This document shows, one piece after another, positions 8,780-36,906 of a DNA stretch of 36,906 bases. The notes under the pieces are model-generated. The model saw only the letters and a list, made by a program, of their open reading frames with translations. It made no database searches and was not told where the DNA came from. How positions within the stretch are numbered: position 1 is the stretch's first letter; each line of letters opens with the position of its first letter. Made by a program: the position numbers and the translations under genes. Location of the stretch: positions 1 to 36,906 of IMG/VR virus record IMGVR_UViG_3300031565_000161. One strand, written 5' to 3'. This DNA is from a virus.

Positions 8780-9236
8780 GCGTTCCTTCGACGACGTGAT
8801 GGCTGCACTGCCCGGTATGTCACCGGAGCAGCGTCGTTGCGTGGTCGTTGCGTGTAACGTGCTGGGCATGGAGGTCGGCGGCGGTGTCGACGCTCCTGAA
8901 GACCTGCTCTGGAGGGGGTATACCCGGTACGCCGAGGAGTGTAGGGTGCTGCTCCCCTCGGTGGGCTACGCTCGCAAGATGCGGGATTGGGCGAAGCTGA
9001 AGCGGGCATGCCAGGACCTCGACCCGTGGGTGCGCAAGCACTTCGAGATCGAGGACGAAACGGAACGAGCCGCGGCCTACCGTTTGGTAGCTCGCTGCGT
9101 CATGCGGATGGTCGATGACATGGAACTGAGCTGGCTCCCTCGCATCCTCATGCAACAGGCCGCGAACGCGACGCAGGCCGTCGAGCGTCAGTTCCCGGGG
9201 TATGCCCAGGGTGGGTTGTTGCGGACCGTCCTGTAG
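8772..9236 (+). CDS. Hypothetical protein upstream of the helicase
   Basis: 154 residues, mainly helical, with no recognisable motif; rich in Arg, Glu and Trp. It overlaps the winged-helix gene by eight bases and the helicase start by one (TAGTG). Its fixed position directly before a DnaB-like gene raises the possibility of a helicase loader or partner, but nothing in the residues proves it. Confidence 0.55.
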   Translation: MSERSFDDVMAALPGMSPEQRRCVVVACNVLGMEVGGGVDAPEDLLWRGYTRYAEECRVLLPSVGYARKMRDWAKLKRACQDLDPWVRKHFEIEDETERAAAYRLVARCVMRMVDDMELSWLPRILMQQAANATQAVERQFPGYAQGGLLRTVL

Positions 9237-10624
9237 TGAAGCTCCAAGCCGCCGTGCAAGAGGCCCTCGTAGCCCTGTTGTGCTACGACCAGGAGGCTGG
9301 GGCCCAGGTCATCACGATGGTGGAGGGCCGGGACTTCGATCCGGTCTACCGGGAGATCGCCGAGATGGCGATCGAGTACCGGCAGCGGCATGGGAGCCCA
9401 CCCGGGGAGCACACGCTCGACCTGTTCGACGCGCTCAAGGAGCGCAACCCCTCCCGGGAGGCGGCCTTCGATCAGGTCTTCTCCTCGGTCGAGCACACGG
9501 CGACCGAGATCAACCCGGCCTTCATCGTGGAGCGGGCCGCGGCCTTCGTCCGCTACCAGCGGTTCATGAACGCCATCCAGCGGGCGCTCCGGGACCTGTC
9601 CCGGGGGGACGAGGAGGGCCTTGACGCCGCAGAGGCTGTGATCGCGTCTGCGCTCAAGCAGACAGCCCCCACCTTCCGGGCCGGGACCTACTTCGCCGAG
9701 GATCTGGCGGGCTCCACGCGCTTCCTGGAGGAACCTGAGGCCAGCTTCCCAACGGGGATCCCGGAGTTCGACCGCCGGGGCCTCGGCCCGGTCCGCGGCC
9801 GGCTGCATCTTCTGATGGCGGCATCGTCGAAGGGAAAGAGCTGGTGGTTGATCCATCTTGCGGCCGAGGCCTGGAAGCACGGGCTCTCGGTGCTCTACGT
9901 CACCTTCGAGCTGAGCGAGGTCGAGGTCAGCCAGCGGTTGACCCAGAGATCGTTGTCCATGACCAAGCGACCCTTGGAGGATCTGTCCTGGGAGGAGTTC
10001 ATCGAAAGCCAGGACCCCGCGGACGCCGGGCTGCGCACGCGGCCCAGGAAGATGGGCAAGCGCCCGTCCTTCGCCGATCGTGGAGCCGCCGTGCATGTTA
10101 GAAAGTCCCTGCGTGGGTTGGCCTCCCAGGCTCGGATCCTGATCCGGGACTTTCCGCAGGGCACGATGTCCGTGCAGCAGCTCGATGACTTTCTCACTGT
10201 GCTCTCCGAGCGTGACAAGTTCATGCCGCAGCTGCTGCTCGTGGACTACGCCGACATCATGAAGCGTGCCTCGGGGATGGACCGGTGGGAGGCGCTCATC
10301 GAGATCTTCGAGGGGCTGCGCTCGGTCGCGCAGCGCCGGCACATCGCCGTGGCCACCGTGGGGCAGGTCAAGCACTCCGCGATCAAGGCCAAGCGAGTCG
10401 ATGTCGAGCACACGTCCGGGGCGTGGGACAAAGTCGCGACGGCCGACACGGTCATCACGTACAGCCAGACGGATGAGGAAGAACGCCGCGGGATGGCACG
10501 GCTGCTCGTGGCCAAAGCCCGCACGGAAGAGGGGCGCTTCTCCGTGTTGATCTCCCAGTCGTACGCGACGGGGCAGTTCGTCATGGACAGCACGCGCATC
10601 GGTTCCAACTATGGAGAGACCTGA
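9236..10624 (+). CDS. dnaB: DnaB-like replicative helicase
   Basis: 462 residues. The first 100 resemble a DnaB N-terminal helical domain (AAVQEALVALLCYDQEAGAQVI). The RecA-like core carries a Walker A-type loop AASSKGKS (about 196-203), FELSEVEVSQRL as motif H1a, and LLLVDYADI (about 333-341) as Walker B, followed by TVGQVKHSA as the H3 region. It should unwind the fork 5'-3' with the primase encoded at 28800. The first glycine of Walker A is replaced by Ala, as happens in some phage helicases. The GTG start overlaps the previous TAG. Confidence 0.85.
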   Translation: MKLQAAVQEALVALLCYDQEAGAQVITMVEGRDFDPVYREIAEMAIEYRQRHGSPPGEHTLDLFDALKERNPSREAAFDQVFSSVEHTATEINPAFIVERAAAFVRYQRFMNAIQRALRDLSRGDEEGLDAAEAVIASALKQTAPTFRAGTYFAEDLAGSTRFLEEPEASFPTGIPEFDRRGLGPVRGRLHLLMAASSKGKSWWLIHLAAEAWKHGLSVLYVTFELSEVEVSQRLTQRSLSMTKRPLEDLSWEEFIESQDPADAGLRTRPRKMGKRPSFADRGAAVHVRKSLRGLASQARILIRDFPQGTMSVQQLDDFLTVLSERDKFMPQLLLVDYADIMKRASGMDRWEALIEIFEGLRSVAQRRHIAVATVGQVKHSAIKAKRVDVEHTSGAWDKVATADTVITYSQTDEEERRGMARLLVAKARTEEGRFSVLISQSYATGQFVMDSTRIGSNYGET

Positions 10625-10735: not shown

Positions 10736-12322
10736 GTGGTGATCGCGAAGGCTGCGCTCAAGGAGTACCTGGAAGCGCCGATGCGCGACACGTCGGTGAA
10801 GGTCAAGGTACTGCCCGACGAGAAGCTCGACGCGATCATCGCCAAGCAGGGGCTCCAGTTCTTGACGCCCCCGCGTCGAGCGCAGAAGGTGTGCATGGTG
10901 CTGGGCTGGAAGTTCTCGCGGTTCTTGTTCTTGTTAGGCATGGGAGGTGGGAAAACCAAAATCTGCCTGGACTTGTTCAGGAACAAGCGCCGCGAGGGTG
11001 AATCGGCTCGCATGCTCGTGCTCGTGCCCAACATCGTCAACTTGGATGCTTGGGCCGAGGAGGTCAGGCTGCATGCCCACGACACGCTGTGCGGTGTCGT
11101 GGACCAGTCCGGGGCTGCGAGTCGTTGGGCGATGCTGGAGTCGAAGGCCGAGATCGTCGTCATGACGTACGCAGGTCTGGTCAGCTTGTTGTCGAAGAGC
11201 AAGAAGCCCGACCCCGAAGCGATCAAGCGTTTGGGTGTGGCTTTCGAGATGCTCGTGCTCGACGAATGTACGTCGGTGAAGAATCCCAACACGTCGACGT
11301 TCAAGATCATCCGCAAGCTGCGCAAGTACATCGCTTCGATCTACGGGCTGACGGGCACACCGTTCGACAAGAACCCGATCGATCTGTGGAGCCAGTTCTT
11401 CGCGATCGACGGTGGGGAGACGCTGGGCGAGACGCTGGGCATCTACCGTGAAGCGTTCTTCCGCCAGGAGCGCCAGTACTTCGGTGGCGTGGACTACGTC
11501 TTCCGCAAGCGCAAGTGGCGCGAGCTGTCCCAGCGGTTGACCAACCGGTCCATCCGGTACAGCGAGGCCGAGTGCCAGGACCTGCCCCCGGCTGTTGGCG
11601 GGCTCGACGGCAACTTGATGCTCGTCCCGGTGCGGCTCTCCAAGGACGTGCTGCCGTACTACACACGAATCGACACCGAGCTGACGGAGTCCAAGGGCGA
11701 CTACCAGCTCGTGAACAATGCCTACATACGAATGCGGATGTTGTGCTCGGGCTGGCTGGGCGCGAAGACAGAAGATGGTGAACGGGTGGAGATCGTGTTC
11801 CCGACGAACCCGACCTTCGATGCCGTGGAGGACCTGCTGGGCAGGATCCCCGAGGAGGAGAAAGTGATCGTCGTGACGTGGTTCAACACGACGGGCCGGT
11901 TGCTCATGGAGCGTCTGGGCAAGGGGGCCGTGTTGATCAATGGAACCACGTCGCCGAAGTCGAAGCGAGAAGCCATGGAAGCGTTCCGGGGTGACGGCGG
12001 CCCGCGTGTCCTGGTGGGATCGACGGCGATCAGCAAGGGGGTCAACTTGCAGGCGGCATCGAGGCATATGATCTTCGTGGAGTCTCCAGACTCTGTCATC
12101 GAGCGCAGCCAGCTCGAAGCACGTATCCGCCGCGAAGGTGGAGGCGGCAAGACGGTGTACTACTACGACATCGTGCCGCGGCTGAACGGGTTGCCGACGG
12201 TCATCGAGAAGATCTTGGAGTCACTGACGACCGGCAGGAAGTTGCACGACGTGCTGATCAACAGGAAGAAGCGGACGGACTACGACGGCTTCGACGCGAT
12301 ACCATTGTTCGGAAAGGACTGA
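10736..12322 (+). CDS. SNF2/DEAD-like superfamily 2 helicase
   Basis: 528 residues. Motif I is GMGGGKT (68-74), motif II DECTS (176-180) and motif III LTGTP (205-209). The C-terminal RecA domain has VLVGSTAISKGVNLQAASRHMIF (motif V) and SQLEARIRREGG (motif VI). The DECT box and the overall plan fit SNF2-type ATPases found in phages, which remodel protein-DNA complexes rather than unwind long duplexes. It is the second helicase in this operon, after the DnaB-like protein. The tandem GTG start at 10736 has GGAGG about 12 bases upstream. Confidence 0.8.
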   Translation: MVIAKAALKEYLEAPMRDTSVKVKVLPDEKLDAIIAKQGLQFLTPPRRAQKVCMVLGWKFSRFLFLLGMGGGKTKICLDLFRNKRREGESARMLVLVPNIVNLDAWAEEVRLHAHDTLCGVVDQSGAASRWAMLESKAEIVVMTYAGLVSLLSKSKKPDPEAIKRLGVAFEMLVLDECTSVKNPNTSTFKIIRKLRKYIASIYGLTGTPFDKNPIDLWSQFFAIDGGETLGETLGIYREAFFRQERQYFGGVDYVFRKRKWRELSQRLTNRSIRYSEAECQDLPPAVGGLDGNLMLVPVRLSKDVLPYYTRIDTELTESKGDYQLVNNAYIRMRMLCSGWLGAKTEDGERVEIVFPTNPTFDAVEDLLGRIPEEEKVIVVTWFNTTGRLLMERLGKGAVLINGTTSPKSKREAMEAFRGDGGPRVLVGSTAISKGVNLQAASRHMIFVESPDSVIERSQLEARIRREGGGGKTVYYYDIVPRLNGLPTVIEKILESLTTGRKLHDVLINRKKRTDYDGFDAIPLFGKD

Positions 12323-12691: not shown

Positions 12692-12741
12692 GCATGGGTG
12701 AACGGGGCGTCCCCGTTAGTATGCAACCCGAGGAGTTTCAA

Positions 12742-13434
12742 ATGGCAGCAACGACGGAACGCAAGCGCCGCACAGTCGGCAGCAACGGAACCAACCGTGT
12801 GCCCGAGGACACGACGTCCAACGTGGTCATCCAGGCCCCGCGGATGCGGGTGGCCGCTTTCAAGATCCGGGGCACGTCCCCGTTGGTCATGCACAACTTC
12901 AGCCAAAAGTCCCGGAAGGAGATGATGGACAAGATGGCCGCCGGCTCGCAGGCCAAGAGCAAGAAGGTGCGCACGCCCCGTGACTACGATGACGACTTTG
13001 AGAAGGCCAAGCACGTCAGCACGGCGGGCTGGTACGGCATCCCGGCCAAGGCCTTCAGCTGCGCGATGATCAGCTCGTGCAAGATCGCCAGCTTCGTCAT
13101 GACCCGGGCGAAGATCAGCGTCTTCATCGAGGCTGACGGGTACGACGTCTCGGACGGGACACCCCTCGTGCGGATGGAGTCTCCGAACGAGCCCGAGCGC
13201 GTTGAGCACTATGTCCGCCCGGAGAAGGGGGGTACCGACATCCGCGTGCGCCCCATGTGGCGGGAGTGGAGTGTATCCCTGCGTGTGCGGTGGGACGAGG
13301 ACATCCTCTCGGCCGCGGACATCACGAACCTGCTGATGCGGGCCGGGATGCAGGTCGGCATCTTGGAAGGTCGCGCCGATAGTCGAAAGTCCAACGGCAT
13401 GGGCTGGGGCTTCTTCGAGCTGGTGCAGGACTGA
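12742..13434 (+). CDS. Conserved phage protein of unknown function, GTSPLVMH type
   Basis: 230 residues. The order is FKIRGTSPLVMHNFS, an STAGWYGIPAKAFSCAMI stretch, VRPMWREWSVSLRVRWDE and a C-terminal MGWGFFEL. I recognise this as a widespread phage family without a settled function; the glycine-rich end and beta-rich core recall RAMP/Cas7-like folds, but that is speculation. I chose the ATG at 12742 because GAGGAG is 8-10 bases upstream and the promoter lies at 12663-12691. It is followed by a long terminator, so it is probably monocistronic. Confidence 0.65.
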   Translation: MAATTERKRRTVGSNGTNRVPEDTTSNVVIQAPRMRVAAFKIRGTSPLVMHNFSQKSRKEMMDKMAAGSQAKSKKVRTPRDYDDDFEKAKHVSTAGWYGIPAKAFSCAMISSCKIASFVMTRAKISVFIEADGYDVSDGTPLVRMESPNEPERVEHYVRPEKGGTDIRVRPMWREWSVSLRVRWDEDILSAADITNLLMRAGMQVGILEGRADSRKSNGMGWGFFELVQD

Positions 13435-13444
13435 TACAACACAG

Positions 13445-13512
13445 TGGGTGCGGGGGAAGACAGCTCGTCGTCCTCGTTGGCCGGCGGTCTGGGGGCCCTT
13501 CCCCTGCACCCA
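13445..13512 (+). terminator. Long-stem terminator
   Basis: A 15-nt arm (13445-13459, TGGGTGCGGGGGAAG) pairs with 13498-13512 (CTTCCCCTGCACCCA) with one G-U wobble and a 38-base loop, followed by AGTTTGT. It separates the upstream gene from the first pentamer array. Confidence 0.6.
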
Positions 13513-13520
13513 GTTTGTAA

Positions 13521-13726
13521 CAAGGCAGGTATGGTGCGGTTCGGTTCGGTATGGTGCGGTGCGGTCGGGTGTGGTATGGCAGGTTGGATATGGTGAGGTT
13601 TGGTCCGGTCGGGTTGGGTAGGGCAAGGCAGGTTCGGTTTGGTGCGGTAGGGCAGGGTTGGGTAGGGCAAGGCAGGTGTGGCGAGGTCCGGTCCGGTCCG
13701 GTGGGGCCCGGTAGGGCAAGGCAGGT
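13521..13726 (+). repeat. Degenerate GGYNN pentamer array 1
   Basis: 206 bases made almost wholly of pentamers GGYNN (mostly GGTNN). They are organised in four blocks of 54, 49, 44 and 49 bases, each ending in GGCA; three of the four end in the fixed tail GGTAG-GGCAA-GGCA. Each 4-base GGCA resets the phase. GG dinucleotides recur every five bases on the coding strand, an ideal layout for two-tetrad G-quadruplexes. It accounts for most of the 312-base gap between 13434 and 13747 and ends 20 bases before a start codon. A long open frame on the opposite strand is an artefact of the 15-base codon period. Confidence 0.9.
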
Positions 13727-13746
13727 AAAAACAAGGGGGTAGCAGC

Positions 13747-14211
13747 ATGAGGTGGAACTCGATCACGCACGACATCCGTGCCGAGTTGGATGCTATCAAC
13801 AAAGCAAACGACGGGCTGACGGAAGAGCTGGTCGTGCAGGCCAGCAAGAAGAAGAGCAGTGCGCTCCACCCGTTGTTTCTGTGGGACAACCCAGAAGAGG
13901 CGGCGCACATTGGTCGGCTGGAGATTGCTCGCAAGCTGATCATGCGGGTGCGCATCATCGCCTACGAAGTCCCGGACACGAAGATCGTCGTGGACGTCCG
14001 CAAGTACCACGGAACAGGCAATGGGTACAACGACATCGACACGGTGATGTCCAGCGAAGCGTTGCGGGCACTGGTCGTGCAGAACGCGATCCGGGATCTG
14101 GAGAATCTCGAACACAAGTACGCGCACATCCGGCAGATCGCCGCGGTGTTCGCTGGTGGCGTGCGAGCTTTGAAAGAAGAGATCAAGCGGCTGGAAGAAG
14201 CTGCTGTTTGA
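13747..14211 (+). CDS. Conserved phage protein with W-D-N core
   Basis: 154 residues. The pattern IRAELDAINKAN..LTEELVVQASKKKSSALHPLFLWDNPEEAAHIGRLEIARKLI matches a family common in phages and prophages (helical domain, a Leu-His-x-x-Phe-x-Trp-Asp turn, then an Ala-Arg-rich helix). Function is unknown. It ends in a coiled-coil helix. It is the first gene after pentamer array 1, with AGGGGG upstream of the ATG, so the array would lie in its 5' untranslated RNA if transcription runs through. Confidence 0.65.
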   Translation: MRWNSITHDIRAELDAINKANDGLTEELVVQASKKKSSALHPLFLWDNPEEAAHIGRLEIARKLIMRVRIIAYEVPDTKIVVDVRKYHGTGNGYNDIDTVMSSEALRALVVQNAIRDLENLEHKYAHIRQIAAVFAGGVRALKEEIKRLEEAAV

Positions 14212-14244: not shown

Positions 14245-14499
14245 ATGACTGGCTGGGTTGTGGTGAACATTCCGTTCGGTACGGTTTACGAGCCTACTCC
14301 CAACGACGGTAAGAGGCACTTGCTCGTCGAGGCTGACAGTCTTACTAAGCGGGGGTTGGCCAAGCCTGGGGTAGTCATCGAAGTAGATGGTTCCGAGTAC
14401 CTGATCGGCGACATCAACACATTAGGAGGTGTGTGTGATGATTGTGCGGATGTTCGGAGTCATGAGATCGTGACAAGGTACAAGGTGGTGTACCCGTGA
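14245..14499 (+). CDS. Hypothetical 84-aa protein between the two arrays
   Basis: 84 residues, beta-rich, with a C-x2-C (VCDDCAD) near residue 66 and no recognised family. GAGGAG precedes the ATG. Composition is lower in GC than average. Only six bases separate its stop region from pentamer array 2, so array 1, two genes and array 2 form a compact module. Confidence 0.5.
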   Translation: MTGWVVVNIPFGTVYEPTPNDGKRHLLVEADSLTKRGLAKPGVVIEVDGSEYLIGDINTLGGVCDDCADVRSHEIVTRYKVVYP

Positions 14500-14504
14500 T
14501 GTGT

Positions 14505-14803
14505 CAAGGCAGGTTTGGCAAGGTTTGGTCTGGTCGGGTCTGGTCGGGTTTGGTCCGGCAAGGCAGGTGCGGTGAGGTCCGGTCCGGTCCGGTCCGGCAG
14601 GGTCTGGCAGGTGAGGCAAGGTGAGGTTGGGTGAGGTTTGGTTTGGTGAGGTAGGGCAAGGCAGGTCTGGTTTGGTGCGGCATGGTTCGATGTGGTGCGG
14701 TAGGGCAAGGCAGGTGCGGCAGGGTTAGGTCTGGTCGGGTTGGGTAGGGCAAGGCAGGTGTGGTTCGGTGCGGTCGGGTAGGGTCGGGTAGGGCAAGGCA
14801 GGT
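14505..14803 (+). repeat. Degenerate GGYNN pentamer array 2
   Basis: 299 bases with the same grammar as array 1. There are six blocks of 54, 44, 54, 49, 44 and 44 bases, each a run of 8-10 pentamers GGYNN plus the 4-base phase-breaking GGCA. The tail GGTAG-GGCAA-GGCA ends four of the six blocks; of the other two, one ends GGTCC-GGCAA-GGCA and one GGTCT-GGCA. Departures from GG at the pentamer start are rare (for example GATGT). It ends 14 bases before the GTG at 14818. It fills the 318-base gap between 14499 and 14818. Confidence 0.9.
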
Positions 14804-14817
14804 AAGGGGGACAAAGT

Positions 14818-16201: not shown

Positions 16202-17244
16202 TGGACCGCCAGGAGTTGGCCGACGTGCTGCGGCACGGGTACGAGGCCGTCACCCTGCACCCGTTGTCTCCGGCATTCGGGGCCGTCTTCTTCGACGGCA
16301 GGGTGGCGACCTCGTACGATGGTGAGCTGGCCGTCATCTCCCCGTGCTCGTTGCCGGTGGCGGGTGGTGTTGACGGACGGATGCTCAAGAACTGGGTGCT
16401 CTCGTGCTCAGGGTCCGATGTCAAGGTCGACGAGTCGTCCACGGAGGTTGTCTTCAAGTGCGGGCGCTCGACGCTGCGGCTTCCCAAGTTGGATCCCACA
16501 CAGCTCGTGTTCGAGCTGCCAGCTGGATCGGGCGTGGCGCTGACGGATGTCGAGGAGCTTCTGGGGATGATGGCGAAGGCCCTGCCGTTCGTCGGGGCCG
16601 ACGACGCTCACCTGTGGCGTGTCGGGATGACCATGGACGTCGATGACGTGGCGACGCTCTACGCGACGGACAATGTCTCGATGATCTCCTGCTCGGCCGT
16701 CGTGGACTCGGAGGGGCCGACGCAGACCGTGCTGCCTGCTCGGTTCGTCAAGGCGCTCCTGGCCCAGGTCAAGCGTTCCTCGTTGGCTGCCATCGAGATC
16801 GGTGACGGCTGGGTGCTTGGTGTCTTTGATGATGGCCGGCTGCTCTTCGCGCAGACGGGCGTCGAGTTCGGGGCCGACCAGTACCTGGAGGTCCTCGGGT
16901 CCTGCACGCACGGGGTCGCGTGCTGGAGGCCGGTGACCGAGGAGCTGGGTGAGGCTCTGAACCGGGTTGCCGTGACGCTCAAGATCCTGGGCAGTGATGA
17001 GTGCCAGTTGTCGGTGACCGAGGACGGGCTCACGATCACGACCGACCCGGAGAACATGGCTGTCGCCAGGGAAGAGGTCCCGTTCGTCCTGGACGAGGAC
17101 GTGGAGATGTGGGTGTACGTGCAGGAACTGCTGCGCGTGCTGGAGGACGGGGAACTCATCACGATCCAGCCTCAGTTCGTGGTTGTCACGGGCGAAGGCT
17201 TCACGGCTGTGGTTTCCGCGGCTGTGGCAGACGAGGACGACTGA
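16201..17244 (+). CDS. Probable DNA polymerase sliding clamp (DnaN-like)
   Basis: 347 residues, close to the usual size of about 370 for bacterial beta clamps. It has three beta-rich repeats, ATLYATDNVSMI resembling the conserved clamp strand (A-T-D-x-x-R-L), and a C-terminal TGEGFTAVVSAAV strand. Acidic content is typical. The strongest argument is position: directly before the DNA polymerase and in the same operon as a clamp loader. The sequence is divergent, so the call is by pattern and context. An alternative is another beta-rich processivity factor. Confidence 0.6.
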
Positions 17245-17249
17245 GCCTG

Positions 17250-19829
17250 ATGGCTAGACGAGCCGGACTCTTCACGCGGCAGTCGGCCAAGGAGGTCCGC
17301 AAGGAGAAACACAGGCCAGCCCGGCCAACGGCAGAGACGCTCCAGGCCCTCGGTCCCGAGGGTGCGCGGCAGATGAACCCGGATGCCGTGACACCGATGA
17401 TGGAGCCCCAGGGTGCCGAGGATCCGTTGGTCTACATCTTGGGCCCGTACCCACGGGCTGTTGATGACTCCAGCGGTCAGCACTACGCCGGGGCTCCTGG
17501 CGAGTACTTGTTTGATGCTCTTCCGAACTGGGCCCCCGACGTGACCCGGTACGGGTACTGCGTGCGGACGTTGCCCAAGCGGAAGAAGGGGAGCTACGTC
17601 GTCAAGCCTCAGTACATCGAGTGCTTCCGTGCAGCTGTGCGGGCTGACATCGCGAAGAGCAAGCCGAAGGTCGTCCTCGGACTGGGTGAGCTGCCGCTGT
17701 CGTGGATGCTGGGGCTGAAGAACGTCGCGGGTCTGCGCGGCAAGCGTTACCCGGTGGACATCGAGGGCCACCAGTGCTGGTTCCTCCCGACGATGGCCCC
17801 CGAGTGGCTCGTCGCTGCCAAGATGCAGGAGGACCAGCGGATCCACAAGGTGCCCCTTCAGGAGTGGGAGCGGTTCTGGAAGATGGACCTGCGCAACGCC
17901 TACGAGCTGGCGGATCGAGGTGAGCCTCCGGTCCTGCTCTCGGAGCAGGACATCTGGAAGGGCGTGACGACGTGCTCGACGTTGGGCGAGGTGCTCACGG
18001 CCATCGCCGTGATGTGCCGGTCGAAGGTCGTCGGGTTCGACACGGAGACACACAGGTTCCGTCCGTACCACAAGGACTCGAAGCTGCTCACGTTGGCGCT
18101 GTCGAACGGGGACCACACGTACGCCTTCTCGATCGATCACTCAGGGCATGTGTGGACCAAGGAGGAGCGCAGGCAGATCGTGGACGCCCTGCGAGGCCTG
18201 TTCACTTCGAAGGTGACGTGCGTGGCCCACAACCTGTCCCACGACCTGGAGTGGCTGGCGTGGTTGTGTGGCAATGGCGTGCTCACGGGCACGTACGGGT
18301 GCTCCCAGGCCGCGGCGTTCGTGCTGAACCCTGGTCCGCCTGGGATGGGTGCGGCAGGACACGCGCTCGATGACCTCTGCCAGGAGGCGTTCGGGCTGCC
18401 GCTCAAGTCGATGACCCCCGGGGCCAAGTTCGTCGCCCGCTTGCAAGAGCTGCCTGTTCAGCAGGTGCTGGAGTACAACGCGCTGGATGCCAAGTGGTGC
18501 AGGGCGTTGTGGCACCACCTCATGCACGAGGTCAAGGAGCAGCGGCTCACGAGGTCGTACAAGATCCAGGTTGAGCGTGTGCCGACGTTGGTCAACGCCC
18601 AGATCGTCGGCGTCCCCATTGATCAAGACGCCCGGCAGGTCATGGACGTGGAGCTGACCAAGCAGATCGCGCTCGTCGAGGCCGAGATCATGGAGGACTC
18701 GGTCGTCGTCAAGTGGAAGAAGAAGCACCCGGACTTCTCGCCGACGTCTCCCAAGATGTACGGGGAGTTCCTGGACAAGTGCTTGAACGTCCCCAACGTC
18801 CGGTCGTTCAAGGGGGTCTCCACGTCGGCGCTCATCCTGGATCCCATCCGGCGTGACTACCCGACGATCGACGCCGTGCTCCGGCTGCGGGGCCTGGAGA
18901 AGTTGCTGGGTACGTACGTGCGGCGCTTCGACCCGTCCTTCCCGGACAGCTACGTCTTCCCGGACGGGAAGATCCATTGCAAGTTCACGACGATGCGGGC
19001 TCGCACAGCACGCCTCGCGAGTGAATCACCGAACAATCAGAACTGGCCAGCGCGGCGCAACAAGGAAGTGCGCAAGCAGCTGGCGGCCCCCGATGGGTGT
19101 GTCTGGGTTGCGGCCGACCAGGGTCAGATCGAGGCCAGGGTGTTGGCGATGGAGAGCTGCGACCCGACGTGGGTCGGCATGATCGAGAAGAACTACGACG
19201 TCCACCAGGAGTGGGCACAGAAGATCGCCGGCATCAGCGAGCCGTTTGCCAAGCTGCTCGACGAGGAGCCGAAGAAGGCCCGGCACAAGAGCAAGAACGG
19301 CTGGGTCTTCCCGGCGTTCTACGGCAGCTCGCTCGGATCCATCATCCGCAACTTGGAGTTGGACGAAGTCGCTGCATCCGCGGACGACTTGTTCCACGAG
19401 TTCTGGGACACGTTCAAAGGCGTGAAGCGGTGGCAACGAAGACAGGCACAGAAGTACGAGCGCATGGGCTACGTCACGAGCTTGACGGGCCGGCGACGTT
19501 GGGGACCACTGTCGTACAACATGTGCATCAACTCCCCGATCCAATGCACGGCGAGCGACATTTGCGTGGACGCGATGGTGCGCTTGTTCAACCGCAGTCT
19601 GGAAGAGAACAAGCCGTGGTTGGCGGCCGTGCTCCAGATCCACGATGACCTGTCTTTCCTCGTGCCTGAGGATGCTTTGTCTGATACAATAGCGGCCGTC
19701 GTCGAGGAGCAGCTGGGCTTCGACGCACCGTGGGTGAACGTACCGTTGTCCGTCGAGGTCAAGACGGGAAAGAACCTCGCCGAGATGCAAGTCGTCGGTG
19801 AGTGGACCAGTTACGACTTGGAGGATTGA
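17250..19829 (+). CDS. polA: DNA polymerase I with N-terminal UDG-like domain
   Basis: 859 residues. About 35-215 look like a family 4/5 uracil-DNA glycosylase fold (LVYILGPYPRAVDD..GAPGEYLFDALP, KPKVVLGLGELP), but the usual catalytic His-Pro motif reads MAPEW. The 3'-5' exonuclease has D264-T-E266, H327-N328...D332 and Y409-x3-D413. The polymerase A motif is D623-QGQIEAR, motif B R678...K682...F687...Y691-G692, motif C I-H798-D799-D800 (Glu in most PolI is Asp here). No 5'-3' exonuclease. Phage SPO1 polymerase is, to my knowledge, a comparable UDG-like fusion. It should be the main replicative polymerase, served by the clamp and loader next to it. Confidence 0.85.
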   Translation: MARRAGLFTRQSAKEVRKEKHRPARPTAETLQALGPEGARQMNPDAVTPMMEPQGAEDPLVYILGPYPRAVDDSSGQHYAGAPGEYLFDALPNWAPDVTRYGYCVRTLPKRKKGSYVVKPQYIECFRAAVRADIAKSKPKVVLGLGELPLSWMLGLKNVAGLRGKRYPVDIEGHQCWFLPTMAPEWLVAAKMQEDQRIHKVPLQEWERFWKMDLRNAYELADRGEPPVLLSEQDIWKGVTTCSTLGEVLTAIAVMCRSKVVGFDTETHRFRPYHKDSKLLTLALSNGDHTYAFSIDHSGHVWTKEERRQIVDALRGLFTSKVTCVAHNLSHDLEWLAWLCGNGVLTGTYGCSQAAAFVLNPGPPGMGAAGHALDDLCQEAFGLPLKSMTPGAKFVARLQELPVQQVLEYNALDAKWCRALWHHLMHEVKEQRLTRSYKIQVERVPTLVNAQIVGVPIDQDARQVMDVELTKQIALVEAEIMEDSVVVKWKKKHPDFSPTSPKMYGEFLDKCLNVPNVRSFKGVSTSALILDPIRRDYPTIDAVLRLRGLEKLLGTYVRRFDPSFPDSYVFPDGKIHCKFTTMRARTARLASESPNNQNWPARRNKEVRKQLAAPDGCVWVAADQGQIEARVLAMESCDPTWVGMIEKNYDVHQEWAQKIAGISEPFAKLLDEEPKKARHKSKNGWVFPAFYGSSLGSIIRNLELDEVAASADDLFHEFWDTFKGVKRWQRRQAQKYERMGYVTSLTGRRRWGPLSYNMCINSPIQCTASDICVDAMVRLFNRSLEENKPWLAAVLQIHDDLSFLVPEDALSDTIAAVVEEQLGFDAPWVNVPLSVEVKTGKNLAEMQVVGEWTSYDLED

Positions 19830-36798: not shown

Positions 36799-36852
36799 AA
36801 ATCTAAATCTAAATCTAAATCTAAATCTAAATCTAAAGCTAAATCTAAAGCT
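36799..36852. repeat. AAATCT hexamer array
   Basis: Nine hexamers: six AAATCT, then AAAGCT, AAATCT, AAAGCT. The last two contain the AATCTAAAGCT motif found before two starts at 29754 and 30061. Confidence 0.85.
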
Positions 36853-36864
36853 GTCGGCCCCGGC

Positions 36865-36896
36865 GGGGGGGGGGGGTGCGTACGCACTAGTGCGTA
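36865..36896. other. 12-G run and nested palindromes near window end
   Basis: Twelve G (36865-36876), then GTGCGTACGCAC (36876-36887) and TACGCACTAGTGCGTA (36881-36896), two perfect palindromes that share a half-site. The rest of the window to 36906 has no gene. Possibly near a genome end or packaging site. Confidence 0.6.
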
Positions 36897-36906
36897 TTCC
36901 GTTCAG

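Follow-up and report, generated by a model that had tools for sequence, protein, structure and literature searches.

Organization of the locus

The window, a 36,906-nucleotide (nt) stretch of viral DNA, carries two arrays of GGYNN pentamers in the company of a RAMP-family gene, here called vipr, a probable accessory gene and a small open reading frame (ORF), all on the same strand (Table 1). vipr is situated directly upstream of array 1, and the gap between its stop codon and the array holds a strong hairpin with a 15-bp stem, which may act as a terminator, a processing site or a leader element. In other loci, the array usually starts a few bases past the stop codon. Array 2, overlooked by an earlier sequence-only reading that had correctly singled out array 1, is placed behind two small genes that separate it from array 1. 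The second of these, an ORF of 84 amino acids, occurs in the window only, is not conserved in the set of 120 array loci described below, and has no match in Pfam or PHROG.

Table 1. Features of the vipr locus and of the replication-type genes around it (positions in the window)
Feature	Position	Strand	Basis and remarks
DnaB-like helicase gene	9236-10624		replication-type gene
SNF2-like helicase gene	10736-12322		replication-type gene
vipr gene, RAMP-family protein, PHROG 4652	12721-13434	+	profile and fold; first in-frame ATG at 12721 or 12742
Strong hairpin in the gap from vipr to array 1	13444-13514	+	RNA fold (flanks included) -46.2 kcal/mol, z -2.47
Array 1 (vrRNA array), four guide blocks of (GGYNN)8-10 + GGCA	13524-13728	+	sequence, GGYNN parser
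Probable vipr accessory gene (vap-like), PHROG 15946	13747-14211	+	homologues in 75/120 array loci and 76/80 protein-fetched Vipr loci
Small ORF between accessory gene and array 2	14245-14499	+	window only
Array 2 (vrRNA array), six guide blocks	14508-14807	+	sequence, GGYNN parser
DNA polymerase gene	17001-19829		polymerase A with exonuclease domain

Replication-type genes stand on both sides of this locus. The DNA polymerase also bears a uracil-DNA-glycosylase-like domain toward its N-terminus (Pfam UDG, E 2.4e-7). No cas gene was matched among the neighbouring genes tested against Pfam and PHROG, and a repeat search of the window found no spaced identical repeats of the CRISPR type. The end of the window (36827-36906) holds short repeats of the CTAAATCTAAAGC type together with 12 consecutive G, which could be a genome-end feature or an assembly artefact.

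Grammar of the two arrays

The arrays were delineated with a parser that accepts GGYNN pentamers and the tetramer GGCA. Array 1 begins with GGCA (13524-13527) and continues with blocks of 10, 9, 8 and 9 pentamers, 54, 49, 44 and 49 nt long with the GGCA that closes each; by the parser its end falls at about 13724-13728. A single pentamer, GATAT in block 2, departs from GGYNN. The tail GGTAG-GGCAA-GGCA closes three of the four blocks; in array 2 it closes four of the six, and its shorter form GGCAA-GGCA five. The block lengths, the closing GGCA and the fixed tail in array 1 are thus as the sequence-only reading had described them. Altogether, the ten blocks of the window contain 8-10 pentamers plus GGCA each, that is, 9-11 GGY units, and the two arrays are the only runs of at least six GGYNN units on either strand. 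ORFs antisense to the arrays were dismissed as by-products of GC-rich repeat sequence.

Written as successive NN pairs, with units lacking a perfect GGY in brackets, the blocks of array 1 decode as AT.GC.TC.TC.AT.GC.GC.CG.GT.AT, TG.(at).GA.TT.CC.CG.TG.AG.AA, TC.TT.GC.AG.AG.TG.AG.AA and GT.GA.CC.CC.CC.GG.CC.AG.AA. Those of array 2 read TT.AA.TT.CT.CG.CT.CG.TT.CC.AA, GC.GA.CC.CC.CC.CC.AG.CT, GA.AA.GA.TG.GA.TT.TT.GA.AG.AA, CT.TT.GC.AT.TC.(gt).GC.AG.AA, GC.AG.TA.CT.CG.TG.AG.AA and GT.TC.GC.CG.AG.CG.AG.AA. The constant NN end of the blocks reaches AG-AA.

The RAMP protein and its probable accessory partner

The sole family match of the vipr product is PHROG 4652, of unknown function; Pfam yielded nothing. 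Searched against the PDB, the profile of the family returned one significant match, the Vipr protein of Escherichia phage SUSP1 (36pp_D, E 2.7e-17), and in the opposite direction SUSP1 ALH47069 scores 85 bits against the HMM of the window's family. The AlphaFold (AF2) model of the window protein has a pLDDT of 90.8, its top Foldseek matches are all Csm, Cmr or type VII RAMPs (E about 2e-5), and the alignment contains a C-terminal G-rich loop. The window protein is hence a RAMP homologue with the RRM core and G-rich loop of a Vipr. A TRAP-like ring protein, at one time entertained as the partner of the arrays, was dropped when the partner gene proved to encode a RAMP.

VIPR (Viral Interference Programmable Repeat) is a CRISPR-like RNA-guided system reported in a preprint of April 2026 (PMC13142463). 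It consists of the ancestral RAMP protein Vipr and of vrRNAs built from alternating GGY and NN motifs, with 9-16 YNNGG repeats in which GGY is fixed and the hypervariable NN form a non-contiguous guide (PMC13142463). The NN pairs recognize double-stranded DNA, each pair leaving one base unread that is mostly the wobble base, and the ribonucleoprotein (RNP) silences transcription, its natural targets being competing phages and satellites (PMC13142463). Accessory genes are named vap1-6, and the experiments were done on the SUSP1 and P. fulva systems (PMC13142463). The sequence-only reading knew of no described element with the grammar of array 1; the vrRNAs are such an element. Its description was accurate nonetheless, and its sense that the grammar resembles no textbook element was fair.

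A tree of 81 Viprs places the window in a branch of 71 members that includes every system with a PHROG 15946-like accessory gene, while SUSP1 and nine others lie outside (support 94/96, with long branches noted). Three loci (L053, L037 and L029) have Viprs on the SUSP1 side of the tree, yet their arrays are head-to-tail and joined by GGCA, so array layout does not strictly follow the Vipr tree. The accessory protein of the window is predicted with a pLDDT of 91.8; it has no fold match in the PDB, and its only good matches are uncharacterised viral proteins. It has no detectable similarity to SUSP1 vap1, the one vap compared, and cannot be aligned with it.

Arrays and vipr across viral genomes

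The pattern (GGYNN)8GGCAGGY matched at least 119 stretches in viral contigs, and a rearranged control with equal number and degeneracy of specified bases, (GYGNN)8GCGAGYG, matched one. The grammar is beyond chance, and the sequence-only reading was right to treat it as real. Contigs of bacterial genomes (257 Gb) gave 16 matches to a stricter pattern with two junctions; the patterns differ, and with this reservation the arrays are largely viral. Searches with blastn and repeat queries returned no matches, probably owing to the low-complexity filter. Across 120 array loci, in which no contig has arrays on both strands, GGY hardly varies, NN are free to vary, and both GGY and the GCAGGY junction are retained over GC contents of 36-73%.

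A vipr gene, found by iterated search, is encoded in 92 of these 120 loci, in every case on the array strand and at most 1.5 kb away; in many of the loci without one, the array abuts a contig edge or the stretch of DNA is short. The linkage was also approached from the opposite side, with 80 viral loci fetched by the Vipr protein alone and without use of the array pattern. A same-strand array is present in 58 of the 80 (one also has an array on the other strand) vs none in shuffles; block lengths peak at 44-54 nt and the joint is GGCA. Thirteen of the remaining 22 hold weaker arrays, some with constant separators of their own. Such longer separators, TTTCTTGGCAGGC and GAGTTGCAGGY, were seen at L179:3539-3814 and in L194 after 4085, all ending in GCAGGY. 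Protein searches found at least 529 Vipr relatives. The loci thus combine vipr and vrRNA genes in a minimal, mostly phage-borne set, as VIPR systems do.

Two named phages, Cyanophage Cy-LDV1 and Gordonia phage UmaThurman, have the layout of the window. In the former (BK059895.1, L141:4128-5075), the Vipr is 53% identical to that of the window, and array, accessory gene and second array follow in the window's order. In the latter (NC_031249.1 33362-33685, L142:4083-4406), gene 40, annotated as a hypothetical protein (YP_009302876.1), is placed on a GGY/NN array flanked by gene 39, which is vipr-like, and by gene 41, and is probably a non-coding array misread as protein.

Turnover and statistics of the NN letters

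Contig pairs whose vipr genes are 85-95% identical differ in NN content within a fixed GGY frame. The arrays of L052 and L099 have whole blocks in common, in the same order, with one block absent in L099, which makes the GGCA-bounded block the unit of gain and loss. The same two contigs (L052 at about 1624-1956, in array orientation; L099 at 5-199) also contain near-duplicate guide blocks one NN letter apart (CA.AA.TT.TC.AA.AT/CT.GG.AC), as if tracking a changing target. The NN before GGCA is more constant among the blocks of one contig (0.48 vs about 0.29 for inner NN). As in VIPR, the NN are hypervariable between related systems, both among relatives and in the position frequencies of the protein-fetched set. 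The sequence-only reading held that only GG and the pyrimidine are kept. Conservation of GGY agrees with this, but the NN are not mere unkept letters: these variable positions carry the information, and the sequence pattern is that of guides rather than of binding sites.

In 62 of 85 contigs, codon positions 1-2 (sense or antisense) gave the best fit to the NN frequencies, by a small margin over background; a code that skips the wobble base should produce such a fit. Sense positions 1-2 taken by themselves were not significantly above plain background.

Searches for targets

Only two window blocks have enough letters (18-20) for an exact search of the whole collection, the others offering 12-16 letters outside the constant end. 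The guide of array 1 block 1 (20 specified bases) had no match in viral contigs; that of array 2 block 1 (18 bases) had one, on the antisense strand of a low-complexity gene and roughly what chance would give. Within the collected array and Vipr loci, no target of the window guides was found. A skip of 1 nt gave 30 near-matches in the collected loci vs 10-19 for other skips, a small excess that is no more than suggestive of the 1-nt rule. Microbacterium guides searched against 296 genomes of the genus produced one match with one mismatch, where a carboxylase-like host gene starts, and near chance.

Weighing the explanations

It is very probable that the locus is a phage VIPR system and that the two arrays are its guide-RNA (vrRNA) arrays. 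This identification is built on the matches to the Vipr profile, to SUSP1 and to the RAMP fold, on a GGY/NN chemistry identical letter for letter, and on a linkage of array and vipr that is strong in both search directions. The sequence-only reading had instead proposed a replication origin or a regulatory 5′ leader, neither of which is supported; the arrays follow a RAMP-family gene (92/120; 58/80). An origin, with the pentamers as an iteron array bound by the initiator or helicase-loader of the phage replication module, would suit the position of the arrays between the helicase genes and the DNA polymerase gene. It is nevertheless highly improbable, as the arrays track vipr rather than replication genes across phages, occur twice in one genome on one strand, and change their NN completely between relatives with near-identical neighbouring genes, a change needless for a binding-site array. 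Association with an initiator and a conserved binding sequence, the marks of an iteron array, are replaced here by association with vipr and by NN that are not conserved.

A regulatory or structural element acting as RNA only, such as the leader of a TRAP-like ring protein or a G-quadruplex tract, would have no guide function. One GG per 5 nt does suit a protein that takes a triplet plus a 2-nt spacer as well as a two-tetrad quadruplex, and the arrays occupy gaps just past stop codons, as judged from crude gene calls. Still, the partner belongs to the RAMPs and has a homologue that is guided by GGY/NN RNAs, block-wise NN turnover and coding-like NN statistics would be unexpected, and two window guide blocks fold no better than shuffles in a program without a G-quadruplex model, which together leave this account very unlikely. 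Repeated reading by a protein, which the sequence-only reading had offered for the periodic GG, survives as the best explanation of the GG triplet, whereas its G-quadruplex alternative is not supported. Functionless low-complexity or microsatellite-like DNA, or a translated repeat protein, could appeal to the GGC form, which reads G-x-A-(W/R/G)-x in all three frames, and to records that annotate ORFs there, as for gp40 of UmaThurman; long ORFs over GGC-form arrays arise precisely because all three frames read in this way. The window arrays, however, have stops in two or all forward frames, in keeping with non-coding arrays; arrays of the GGT type elsewhere contain many TGA and TAA; and GGY with the GCAGGY junction is kept over the whole GC range and tied to one gene family. 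Linkage and conservation already contradict both versions, and there is hardly any likelihood left for either.

Under the VIPR reading, arrays 1 and 2 would be transcribed together with vipr and the accessory gene beside them, and each block would give one guide RNA. The repeated junction (GGTAG-)GGCAA-GGCA followed by GGY would close one guide with a short constant end and open the next. Vipr, related to Cas7/Csm backbone subunits, would coat the guide, each subunit gripping one GGY and presenting its NN. By analogy with the SUSP1 and P. fulva experiments (PMC13142463), from which RNA processing, RNP assembly, DNA recognition with a 1-nt skip and silencing are carried over, the NN pairs would jointly read a double-stranded DNA target, skipping one base after each pair, usually the codon wobble position, and the most likely effect of the bound complexes would be to silence genes of rival phages, prophages or satellites.

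Comparison with known systems

The window system is of a kind already described, though very recently, and is a real, well-formed example of it. VIPR has been put forward as an RNA-guided way of recognizing DNA that preceded CRISPR; to this the window contributes a clean head-to-tail array of a sort common in uncultivated phages (at least 119 contigs by DNA pattern), whose block structure offers a natural set for studying guide processing, the origin of new guides and phage targets.

Class 1 CRISPR-Cas, with its Cas7/Csm3 backbone on the crRNA, resembles the window in its RAMP protein, predicted here to have a Csm/Cmr-type fold, and in its programmable guide logic. The window differs in lacking palindromic repeats, spacers and cas genes, and its guide consists of NN pairs that a GGY scaffold keeps apart. 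Class 1 is marked by a cas operon and by unique spacers set between identical direct repeats; the repeat search of the window showed no such repeats, and the neighbouring genes tested no cas match. TIGR-Tas (tandem interspaced guide RNA) shares phage-borne tandem guide arrays and a small RNA-guided protein, but, by its published description, has another protein family and another array grammar.

The SUSP1 system (PDB 36pp; KT454805 28031-29061) is closer, with a RAMP-fold Vipr, same-strand GGY/NN RNA genes adjoining it, a small accessory gene and a phage genome. The window likewise contains a non-coding RNA gene of tandem repeats within the 9-16 range and with conserved GGY. In SUSP1, however, every vrRNA stands alone, with about 11-15 repeats and, behind them, a conserved structured tail, which is a pseudoknot (PMC13142463), whereas the window blocks run head-to-tail, joined at GCA-GGY, without a structured tail. 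The accessory protein is also unrelated to that of SUSP1 (vap1), and the Viprs lie on different branches of the tree. VIPR type II, the SUSP1 clade, has a structured 3′ tail per repeat tract and a Vipr within the SUSP1 branch; the contiguous blocks of the window and the tree (94/96, with a long-branch warning) place it elsewhere.

A tentative proposal, rated at somewhat below even likelihood, is that a large branch of VIPR, separate from that of SUSP1 and exemplified by the window, would store its guides head-to-tail in CRISPR-like fashion without separate repeats; the GCA-GGY junction would end one guide and start the next, blocks would be gained and lost whole, and a distinct, uncharacterised accessory family would take part. 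If so, guide cutting and the possible target pairing of the constant AG-AA-A end would amount to a new mechanism. The preprint mentions seven VIPR types, among them "staggered arrays with overlapping vrRNAs" (PMC13142463, fig. S18). To judge from this description, the layout of the window, with blocks that move the phase by one and have their junction in common, is probably this one.
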